64,000 bases of DNA from NCBI GenBank assembly GCA_030613505.1, contig JAUWLW010000002.1:49424-113423 (forward strand), read 5' to 3'. Below, piece by piece: positions 58,714-61,319 of the stretch. Made by a program: the position numbers and the translations under genes. Numbering within the stretch: the first letter of the stretch is position 1; each line of letters starts with the position of its first letter. Below the pieces are notes generated by a model, which saw only the letters and a program-made list of their open reading frames with translations, had not been told where the DNA came from and did not search any database. The DNA comes from Candidatus Zixiibacteriota bacterium (GTDB lineage: Bacteria; RBG-13-66-14; B26-G2; WVWN01).

Positions 58714-59616
58714 ATGTTCCTCCAACAGCTCATCAACGGATTGACCATAGGCGCGGTGTACGCGCTCATCGCCGTCGGCTACACGATGGTCTACGGCATC
58801 GTGGAGCTTATCAACTTCGCCCACGGCGAGATCTACATGATGGCGACGTTCGTCGCCATGACGCTCTTCCGGCTGGCGGGTTACCCGTTATGGATCGCCG
58901 CGCCGGCGGCCATCGTAGCTGCGATGATTATGGGCGTCACGTTGGAATACATCGCGTACAGGCCGCTGCGCCGGAGCCCCCGGCTGGTGGCGCTTATCTC
59001 CGCCATCGGCGCGTCGCTCTTCCTCCAGAACCTGGCGATGAAGATCTGGGGCGCGCGCCGCCAACCGTTCCTCGACGCCGAGCGGCCGCTCGCGTTCTTC
59101 CAGGTGAAGCACCAGCTCGTCGTACCGGTCCTGGGCGAGGCGACGTTCTCCAACATGCAGATAACGATACTCGGGACCGCCGCGGCGATGATGATCTTCC
59201 TGACGTTGATAGTCGGCAAGACCAAGTTGGGGCGGGCGATGCGGGCCTGCGCCCAGGACCAGGTGGCGGCGAAGCTTATGGGCGTCAACGTCGACCGGAC
59301 CATCTCGGCCACGTTCGCCATCGGCTCGGCGATGGCCGCCGTCGCCGGCATCCTCGTCGGCATGAAATACAACCAGGTGTGGCCCATGATGGGGTACATG
59401 GCCGGCCTGAAGGCGTTCACCGCGGCGGTGCTGGGCGGCATCGGCAACATGCCGGGGGCGTTCGTGGGGGGCCTCGTCCTGGGCCTGGCGGAGGGGTTCG
59501 CCGGCGCGTACATCTCATCGCTGTGGATGGACGCCATCGCCTTCGCGCTTCTGATTATCGTTTTGATCTACCGGCCCTCGGGAATATTGGGCCAGCAGAT
59601 CCCGCGGAGGACGTAG
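58714..59616 (+). CDS. livH: Branched-chain amino-acid ABC permease LivH
   Basis: This 300-residue permease of the LivH family has eight or so TM helices with the signatures NGLTIGAVYALIAVGYTMVYG, NFAHGEIYMM, and GLKAFTAAVLGGIGNMPGAFVGG (cytoplasmic coupling region). It pairs with LivM downstream. A RAYT gene with flanking hairpins separates the two. Confidence 0.95.
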   Translation: MFLQQLINGLTIGAVYALIAVGYTMVYGIVELINFAHGEIYMMATFVAMTLFRLAGYPLWIAAPAAIVAAMIMGVTLEYIAYRPLRRSPRLVALISAIGASLFLQNLAMKIWGARRQPFLDAERPLAFFQVKHQLVVPVLGEATFSNMQITILGTAAAMMIFLTLIVGKTKLGRAMRACAQDQVAAKLMGVNVDRTISATFAIGSAMAAVAGILVGMKYNQVWPMMGYMAGLKAFTAAVLGGIGNMPGAFVGGLVLGLAEGFAGAYISSLWMDAIAFALLIIVLIYRPSGILGQQIPRRT

Positions 59617-59620
59617 CCGG

Positions 59621-59666
59621 TAGCACAGACATTCCTGTCTGTGTAGCATAGACATTCCTGTCTGTG
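59621..59666 (+). repeat. Tandem REP-like hairpins upstream of the RAYT gene
   Basis: A 23-bp unit occurs twice in tandem (59621-59643 and 59644-59666) with one mismatch. Each unit contains a hairpin with stem CACAGACA / TGTCTGTG and loop TTCC (59624-59643; in the second copy the C at stem position 3 becomes T, giving a G-U pair). Confidence 0.85.
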
Positions 59667-59674
59667 TAGCCTAA

Positions 59675-60145
59675 ATGGACGCTGAAAATAACATCCCCGT
59701 TTTAAAAGTCCGCCAGCGTAACCTACCGCATTGGGAACTCGCAGGTTCAACGTATTTCATTACTTTCCGGCTTAAAAACGGACAGCTTTCGACCGAAGAA
59801 GTCGTTACGGTTTTGGAGCACGTTAAGAGGGGCGACCCGGCCTATTACGACCTGTTCGCGGCAACCGTCATGCCTGACCACGTGCACGTCGTATTGCGGC
59901 CCAAGGCCGGCGTGTCGCTTTCGCGCATTACGAAAGGGGTAAAGGGAGTGACGGCCAGGTTAATAAACGCGCGTCGGGGCCGGCGAGGCGCCTTGTGGCA
60001 AGACGAGTCGTACGACCGCATAATCCGTGACGATACGGAAATGGGAGAGAAGACGGAATATATATTTGAAAATGCTATCAAGCAGGGATTGTGCAACGAC
60101 GGGTGGGATTACGAAGGTTTTTATTTGAAAGACGGGCCTTGGTAA
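59675..60145 (+). mobile_element. REP-associated tyrosine transposase (RAYT, Y1 HUH family)
   Basis: The 156-residue protein is a Y1-type HUH transposase of the TnpA-REP group. The metal-binding pair is His69-x-His71 (VMPDHVHVVL), LWQDESYDRIIRD is the conserved C-terminal block, and the nucleophile is Tyr129 (KTEYIFENAIKQG). Such enzymes mobilise REP hairpins; they are usually single-copy and domesticated. It sits between livH and livM in the same direction, with REP-like hairpins on both sides, and appears intact. Confidence 0.92.
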
Positions 60146-60148
60146 TTA

Positions 60149-60168
60149 TACAGGCAGGAATGCCTGTA
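60149..60168 (+). repeat. REP-like hairpin downstream of the RAYT gene, inverted orientation
   Basis: Stem TACAGGCA / TGCCTGTA with loop GGAA. Its reverse complement gives ACAGGCA-TTCC-TGCCTGT, matching the upstream units but with one A-T pair changed to G-C on both arms, so the hairpin is kept. Confidence 0.85.
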
Positions 60169-60203
60169 CCACAAACGAGAAACGGTGTAGCAATAAGTTC
60201 TAT

Positions 60204-61319
60204 ATGAAGACCTTAGTCGCATCCGATCTCGAGCGCTTCGAGCGCAACGTAGGCGCGCTGCTGCAGTACCCGGTGCGGGCCGCGGCCATATTCGTCGCGA
60301 TAGGTGCGGCCGCGGGGCTGGGCCTGACGGTCCTGGACTTGCCCGTCGGCCTCGTCGCCGTTGCCGCCGCCGTTACCATCGGCTCGCTGTTGTTCGCGCG
60401 CACTAAGGTCCTCCTTGTCGTGTTCTTCGTCGTAGCGCTCGCTATAGTACCGTTCGTAGTCCGCGACCAATACTGGCTCCGCGTAATAGTGACTATCGGT
60501 ATCTATGCCGTCCTGGCGTTGGGGCTTAACGTCATCGTCGGCTTCACCGGCGTCCTGGACCTGGGCTTCATCGCGTTCTACGGCATCGGCGCTTATACGG
60601 CGGCGCTGTTGATGCTCAAGTGCGGCTGGTCGTTCTGGGCCGCGCTGCCGGTGGCGACGGCGGCCGGGGCGTTGTTGGGCGTCCTGCGCGGTCTGCCGAC
60701 GCTGCGCCTCTCCGGCGACTACCTCGCCATCGTGACGCTGGGCTTCGGCGAGATCGTGCGCCTGACGTTTAACAACTGGGTCGGTCTGACCAACGGCCCG
60801 ATGGGCCTGCGCGGCATCGAGCCGCCGACGATAGGCTCGTTCTCGTTCGGCTTCGACGCGGCGCGGGGCGGGTACATGCGCTACTACTTCCTGGTTTTGG
60901 TTCTGCTCGCGCTCGCCGTGTACGTCGCGTATCGCCTGCGGCGCTCGCGGCCCGGGCGCGCGCTGTTGGCCATCCGCGATAACGAGACCGCCGCGGCGGC
61001 GATGGGCGTACATCTTTCCAGATATAAGACGCTGGCGTACGCGCTGGGGGCGGCCTTCGGCGGCGCCGCGGGAGCGTTATTCGTTTCGTTCAACCTCTTC
61101 GTCTCGCCCAACTCGTTCGTTTTCTTCGAATCGGCGATAGTGCTGTGCATGGTGGTCGTCGGCGGTATGGGGTCCATCCCGGGCGTTATTATAGGCGCCG
61201 TTATTCTGGCGTCGTTCCCGGAGCTGCTGCGCTTCCTGGCGGGGTTCCGCTACCTCATCTTCGGCGCGTTGATGGTCGCGGTGGCGGTCTTCAGGCCGCG
61301 GGGCTTGATGCGGGCTTAG
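60204..61319 (+). CDS. livM: Branched-chain amino-acid ABC permease LivM
   Basis: This 371-residue permease has LivM landmarks: NVIVGFTGVLDLGFIAFYGIGAY, LRLSGDYLAIVTLGFGEIVR, NWVGLTNGPMGLRGIEPP, and the coupling region with GGMGSIPGVIIGAV. The first 90 residues are an N-terminal extension with helices, as in LivM. It completes the permease heterodimer with LivH. The expected ATPase genes livG and livF do not follow; the next gene is unrelated. Confidence 0.94.
   Translation: MKTLVASDLERFERNVGALLQYPVRAAAIFVAIGAAAGLGLTVLDLPVGLVAVAAAVTIGSLLFARTKVLLVVFFVVALAIVPFVVRDQYWLRVIVTIGIYAVLALGLNVIVGFTGVLDLGFIAFYGIGAYTAALLMLKCGWSFWAALPVATAAGALLGVLRGLPTLRLSGDYLAIVTLGFGEIVRLTFNNWVGLTNGPMGLRGIEPPTIGSFSFGFDAARGGYMRYYFLVLVLLALAVYVAYRLRRSRPGRALLAIRDNETAAAAMGVHLSRYKTLAYALGAAFGGAAGALFVSFNLFVSPNSFVFFESAIVLCMVVVGGMGSIPGVIIGAVILASFPELLRFLAGFRYLIFGALMVAVAVFRPRGLMRA

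Follow-up and report, generated by a model that had tools for sequence, protein, structure and literature searches.

A probable REPtron, a single-copy RAYT gene with inverted tagged REP hairpins, between livH and livM of a Candidatus Zixiibacteriota bacterium

Introduction

REPs are palindromes with a tag at the foot, and a RAYT (TnpAREP) gene flanked by GT[AG]G-tagged REPs is termed a REPtron. The TnpAREP enzymes studied so far act strand-specifically on single-stranded REP, and in the 8-bp class cleavage needs both the tag and a matched stem (PMC8266576). In the REPtron Sm of Stenotrophomonas maltophilia, a group 3 TnpAREP system, an 8-bp perfect palindrome with a loop of three bases (GCT) directly follows GTAG, and there is one TnpAREP gene (PMC8266576). 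E. coli TnpAREP (4er8) combines the HUH/Tyr fold with a W-Q...R tag-contact region, and its gene carries inverted, unlike Y/Z REPs, which are long and contain a bulge (PMC6006769, PMC8266576). GTAG-tagged REPs also form inverted heterodimers whose partners differ in the stem; a bias towards unlike partners has been described in other REP families, with no obvious explanation for it (PMC3733652). Insertion sequences of the IS200/IS605 family (IS608, ISDra2) share the Y1 HUH fold and hairpin recognition.

Here we describe an element in 64,000 nucleotides of contig JAUWLW010000002.1 (the window). Like REPtron Sm, it has an 8-bp perfect palindrome directly after the tag, a small loop and one TnpAREP gene; unlike it, the loop has four bases (TTCC), the tags read GTAG and GTGG, dispersed copies are few, the host lineage is uncultured and relatives extend over several phyla. 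It shares the fold, the tag-contact region and the inverted unlike REPs of the E. coli system, but its stems are short and perfect, and identity in the structure match is 23%. As in the tagged heterodimers, the inverted partners are unlike in the stem; in the window lineage they differ mainly at stem position 6 (and 2), and two species retain this difference at one shared junction, though with the sides of the two types reversed. From IS200/IS605 elements it differs in scoring below the cut-off of the family model, in having no multiple near-identical copies and in carrying tagged REPs in place of IS ends.

Results

Tagged hairpins at the livH-livM junction

The features of the locus, in window positions, are as follows.

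58714..59616, plus strand: livH, branched-chain amino acid permease, upstream neighbour (ORF; PF02653, 161 bits)
59620..59623, plus strand: GTAG tag of hairpin 1 (sequence)
59624..59643, plus strand: REP hairpin 1, CACAGACA-TTCC-TGTCTGTG, A-type arm (DNA fold -7.9 kcal/mol, z -5.4)
59643..59646, plus strand: GTAG tag of hairpin 2, its G being the final base of hairpin 1 (sequence)
59647..59666, plus strand: REP hairpin 2, CATAGACA-TTCC-TGTCTGTG, with one T-G wobble (DNA fold -4.5 kcal/mol, z -3.7)
59675..60145, plus strand: RAYT/TnpAREP gene, 156 aa (NF047646, PF01797 and 4er8 matches)
59879..59887, plus strand: HUH motif, His69-Val70-His71 (both His invariant in 17 aligned sequences)
59996..60028, plus strand: W108 Q109 ... 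D114 R115 ... R118, equivalent to W94 Q95 E100 H101 R104 in the tag-contact region of E. coli TnpAREP (4er8 alignment; roles from PMC6006769)
60059..60061, plus strand: Tyr129, predicted catalytic (invariant; aligned with the YIYINP tyrosine of 4er8)
60149..60168, minus strand: REP hairpin 3 (inverted), TACAGGCA-TTCC-TGCCTGTA, G-type arm (DNA fold -7.7 kcal/mol, z -4.8)
60169..60172, minus strand: GTGG tag of hairpin 3 (sequence)
60204..61319, plus strand: livM, branched-chain amino acid permease, downstream neighbour (ORF; PF02653, 171.8 bits)

Reading from livH, two tandem tagged hairpins precede the 156-codon RAYT gene, and one inverted tagged hairpin stands between it and livM. Each hairpin combines an 8-bp stem, a TTCC loop and a GTRG tag, and the arrangement is inverted across the gene. 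This pattern occurs three times in the window, against 0.17 expected from shuffles, and, as single strands of DNA, all three hairpins fold better than almost every shuffled version (z scores above). Both these hairpins and the family copies described below are palindromes with a tag at the foot, that is, REPs, and the RAYT gene has such GT[AG]G-tagged REPs on both sides, as in a REPtron. A literature search with the hairpin sequences found no paper.

A preliminary description, made from the sequence, had proposed a RAYT with REP-like hairpins; the profiles, the 4er8 match and the tagged hairpins at related RAYT genes bear this out. It did not contain the GTRG tags, which are the diagnostic feature of the hairpins, and several stem details are corrected here. 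The downstream stem, reported as 7 bp, has 8 bp with GTGG directly at its foot. The two upstream copies, assigned one common stem, are not identical: stem position 3 of hairpin 2 is a T-G wobble. The A-T to G-C swap described between the arms is real (position 6), but hairpins 1 and 3 differ by two full pair swaps rather than one, the other being C-G to T-A at position 1.

The RAYT protein

The protein scored 80.0 bits against the REP-associated tyrosine transposase equivalog of NCBIfam (NF047646), exactly at the cut-off of 80, and also matched PF01797 (Y1_Tnp, Y1 transposase). Its sole PDB sequence match (phmmer) was TnpAREP 4er8, and the same structure, TnpAREP bound to a REP hairpin, was the top PDB fold match of its AF2 model (mean pLDDT 88; E 2e-9, 23% identity). 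His69, His71, Trp108, Arg118 and Tyr129 are invariant in the 17 aligned sequences, and sequence and AF2 model together place an HUH motif and a predicted catalytic tyrosine in a Y1 fold, as in TnpAREP. The segment WQDESYDRIIR aligns with WQPRFWEHAIR of 4er8 and retains the Trp, Gln and Arg of the tag-contact region. Glu100 and His101 of the E. coli enzyme are replaced by Asp and Arg; such replacements are known from other RAYT subclasses (PMC6006769). The class 2 signature Y---NP reads Y-I-F-E-N-A in the window RAYT, and NP or NA in its relatives.

The Y1 transposase match, the subterminal hairpins and the next fold matches of the model, the IS200, ISDra2 and IS608 transposases, would also suit an ordinary insertion sequence of the IS200/IS605 type, mobile as a unit and with the hairpins as its subterminal ends. 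However, the IS200/IS605 model NF033573 gave 28.3 bits against a cut-off of 55. Where multiple near-identical copies would be expected, the exact gene is single-copy in the window genome, and the next homologue is 35% identical. In addition, the hairpins are GTRG-tagged, and members of the hairpin family are also found where the gene is absent. We consider this origin very unlikely and retain the REPtron interpretation.

Five more, distant RAYT-like genes were observed in the window genome (L005-L009; G000 contigs C18, C95, C7, C91 and C85). Several of these have hairpins of their own, for example GTAGGGGCGTAA-CGCG-TTACGCCCCTAC at L007, similar to REPs of the 'double foot' type.

Related RAYT genes and their hairpins

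One scan yielded 60 relatives of the RAYT, 45 of them with flanks that could be examined. These flanks contained 131 hairpins with stems of at least 7 bp, compared with 3.15 after shuffling and 5 in control stretches at a distance of 1.2-1.4 kb, and hairpins lay on both sides of 37 of the 45 genes. The plan is uniform: the tag abuts an 8-bp stem, which is closed by a loop of 3-4 bases, most of them pyrimidines. The tag was GTGG at 68 hairpins and GTAG at 39, with GGAG instead in a few. Loss of the hairpins in relatives had been named in advance as evidence against the proposal; the relatives keep them. At three loci (L046, L077 and L074), GGAG, within a larger CAGGAGG motif, or TGCC replaces GTRG at the stem foot, possibly reflecting a change in guide sequence and cleavage site.

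In the tree, the window RAYT groups with L045 (Ignavibacteriota) and L046 (Planctomycetota) with support of 100/99, at 51-53% identity. The hairpins of all three have a common core, CAGACA or CAGGCA, and a TTCC or TTCT loop, except that the second arm at L045 reads CAAGCA. RAYT matches in the congeners G001-G003 are distant, the best of those listed having 30% identity over most of its length, and the other RAYTs of the window genome fall elsewhere in the tree. Because the closest RAYTs, with the same hairpin core, are in other phyla and the congeners have no near RAYT, the simplest reading of the sequences is that this RAYT lineage was probably acquired horizontally.

These comparisons also bear on the idea that the hairpins serve the liv operon, as transcription terminators or in RNA processing, and are unrelated to the RAYT. 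The hairpins do lie in a probable operon and would be expected to fold in RNA too. Yet no T-run follows the window hairpins, the same tagged inverted arrangement is found at related RAYT genes in unrelated contexts and phyla, and the hairpin core follows the RAYT clade. We therefore regard an origin as operon signals as very improbable, although the hairpins may have a secondary RNA role.

Dispersed copies of the hairpin family

Copy numbers come from pattern searches. The exact 23-bp unit has no copy elsewhere in the window genome, and an exact-core search in 40 relatives missed most family members because their stems diverge. The family search, in which only the tag, loop and inner stem were fixed and the outer stem was left free, detected six tagged copies in the window genome, 23 in G001, eight in G003 and one in G002, with 0-1 per strand in controls. 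The same pattern was not found in ten other genomes of the phylum. The further copies that the preliminary description had suggested counting are thus absent as exact repeats but present as family members, three elsewhere in the genome and 23 in the congener G001. The three of six window-genome copies outside the RAYT locus are apparently intergenic and lie beside other REP-like palindromes. The family is sparse here, at six tagged copies compared with 106 perfect core copies in the Pirellulales genome of L046 (G042), and these six do not demonstrate proliferation of hairpins by the window RAYT gene.

The 23 tagged copies of G001 (loci L167-L200), which has no RAYT nearer than ∼30% identity, are apparent orphan REPs; the RAYT gene may have been lost or not assembled. 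One REP copy in this genome, GTGG-GACAGACA-TTCC-TGTCTGTC (L117/L196, G001:C64:1666-1690), apparently falls within a methylase-like reading frame, to which it adds a short peptide.

Pairing is kept while stem letters change

Covariation was assessed in 39 copies (37 of the window's genus, two of a distant genome) that had been selected only by tag, inner stem and loop. Because the search left the five outermost bases of the 3' arm free, they give an unbiased test of pairing. The outer pairs were Watson-Crick in 182 of 195 cells. All four pair types occur at positions 1 and 2, and two each at positions 4 and 5. The copies are related by duplication and the 182 pairs are not independent events; however, such a variety of pair types cannot arise from copying alone. 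A looser test of arm pairing gave 164 Watson-Crick pairs among 277 changed positions, and is the weaker of the two because it includes chance matches with up to four differences.

The livH-livM junction of G003 gave a second view of the same change. Past livH, one contig of this congener carries GTAG and CGCCGGCA-TTCC-TGCCGGTG, followed by another hairpin and then a start codon; 19 bases further on the contig breaks off, so that the gene body is unassembled, and the frame may be that of the same RAYT. The livM contig opens with CACCGACA-AGAA-TGTCGGTA directly before livM, which on the other strand reads TACCGACA-TTCT-TGTCGGTG. Relative to the window, positions 4 and 6 differ in each hairpin, on the 5' and the 3' side of the stem alike, and pairing is kept. 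The arm types are reversed: A-type upstream and G-type downstream in the window, the opposite in G003. Selection on the fold, claimed earlier from a single swap, is supported by the genus-wide covariation and these junction hairpins rather than by that swap. The least credible alternative is that two mutations coincided by chance to give the swap between the arms, the fold being under no selection: a single swap would be weak evidence by itself, but there are two in the window and further ones at the same junction in G003, and pairing is retained in 182 of the 195 unconstrained pairs of the family.

Across the phylum, the junction (window 59617-60203; L106, L108, L109 and L111) is variable. 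It holds an unrelated ORF of ∼340 codons in G001 and other ORFs in G004, G005 and G006, glycosyltransferase-like in two. Occupancy of the site in relatives, proposed earlier as a check, accordingly differs, with different genes in G001 and G004-G006 and the hairpins kept in G003. By livH and livM comparison, whether G001 or G003 is nearer to the window species is too close to call.

Inverted arms of two types

In G042, where the core occurs 106 times without mismatch, 23 of 29 inverted pairs among the copies listed combine an A-type with a G-type arm (P 0.001); at standard spacing (up to 28), the arms are unlike in 21/21. RAYT loci with 4-base loops have unlike arms in 13 of 17 cases, differing at position 6 in 10 and at position 2 in 8 of those 13, whereas like arms are found at 14 of 20 loci with 3-base loops (Fisher P 0.008, uncorrected for kinship). 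Because unlike arms recur in tree neighbours and in the G042 pairs, the position-6 swap probably reflects a two-arm-type system, a regular feature of the lineage. Of the compensatory change first described, the swap on both arms with pairing kept stands; a lone compensatory mutation is unlikely, given the 21/21 unlike pairs of G042. The notion that the difference is orientation-specific, the upstream arm always being A-type, was dropped: G003 and L046 show the opposite arrangement.

More tentatively, the inverted arms could be obligately unlike, each REPtron or REPIN needing one A-type and one G-type hairpin, unlike at position 6 and each fully paired. Since two species carry the types on opposite sides at the same junction, selection might then keep the rule of unlike arms rather than a left/right assignment, which, as part of the same reading, we put forward with equal reserve. 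The enzyme might treat unlike arms as two distinct ends; alternatively, like arms might fold on each other and be destroyed.

RAYT genes in frame inside housekeeping genes of Phycisphaerae

In Phycisphaerae, we observed whole REPtrons (hairpin-RAYT-hairpin), related to the window's, embedded in frame in housekeeping genes. For example, L060:387-4352 is a single frame of 1322 codons encoding valine--tRNA ligase, with the RAYT at residues 549-682, and the remainder of the ligase with KMSKS. Such valS frames, of ∼1300 codons, were found at about 15 loci (L060:387-4352, L058:189-4307, L049, L054, L056, L059, L061-L065, L067, L068, L071, L072 and L080), and the host enzyme profile matches on both sides of the transposase. 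In-frame RAYTs were also present in purH at three loci (L073, L075 and L078), in an HSP70/HscA-type gene (L069:858-3572) and in a Ham1/RdgB-like gene (L057:1419-2714). Profiles were run on nine in-frame loci, and the rest were judged by open frame and KMSKS motif. Sampling one order (121 genomes) gave 21 RAYT matches, 17 of which sit in open frames at least 399 codons long. Gene-call error as the source of 'RAYTs' of 750-850 aa in Phycisphaerales was rejected: the translations show valyl-tRNA synthetase around them. One family survey excluded proteins that were longer than expected, regarding them as fusions or annotation errors (PMC6006769), and our literature search found no report of RAYTs in frame inside housekeeping genes. 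These insertions merit separate study.

Discussion

The locus is very probably a REPtron, in which a single-copy gene for a RAYT (TnpAREP, an HUH/Y1 nuclease) and its cognate inverted REP hairpins on both sides are lodged between livH and livM. Directly established are the gene family, the tagged inverted hairpins, the dispersed family copies in the genus and the kept pairing. The kind is already known, and the window element adds another member to it.

Cleavage, mobility and a cause for the unlike arms are proposed here; for the first two, the studied enzymes serve as the model. The hairpin would fold when its strand is single, probably during replication; the protein would read the tag, loop and stem of the folded, tagged strand of either arm; and Tyr129 would cut beside the hairpin and rejoin strands, by which REP or REPIN copies could move.

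The arm types of this lineage bear on a question that has been stated as open, namely, why inverted REP pairs so often have unlike partners (PMC3733652). In the hairpin family, stem letters vary at positions 1, 2, 4, 5 and 6 while pairing, tag and loop stay constant, and the copies offer a natural mutation series for the co-change of an HUH enzyme and its DNA hairpin.
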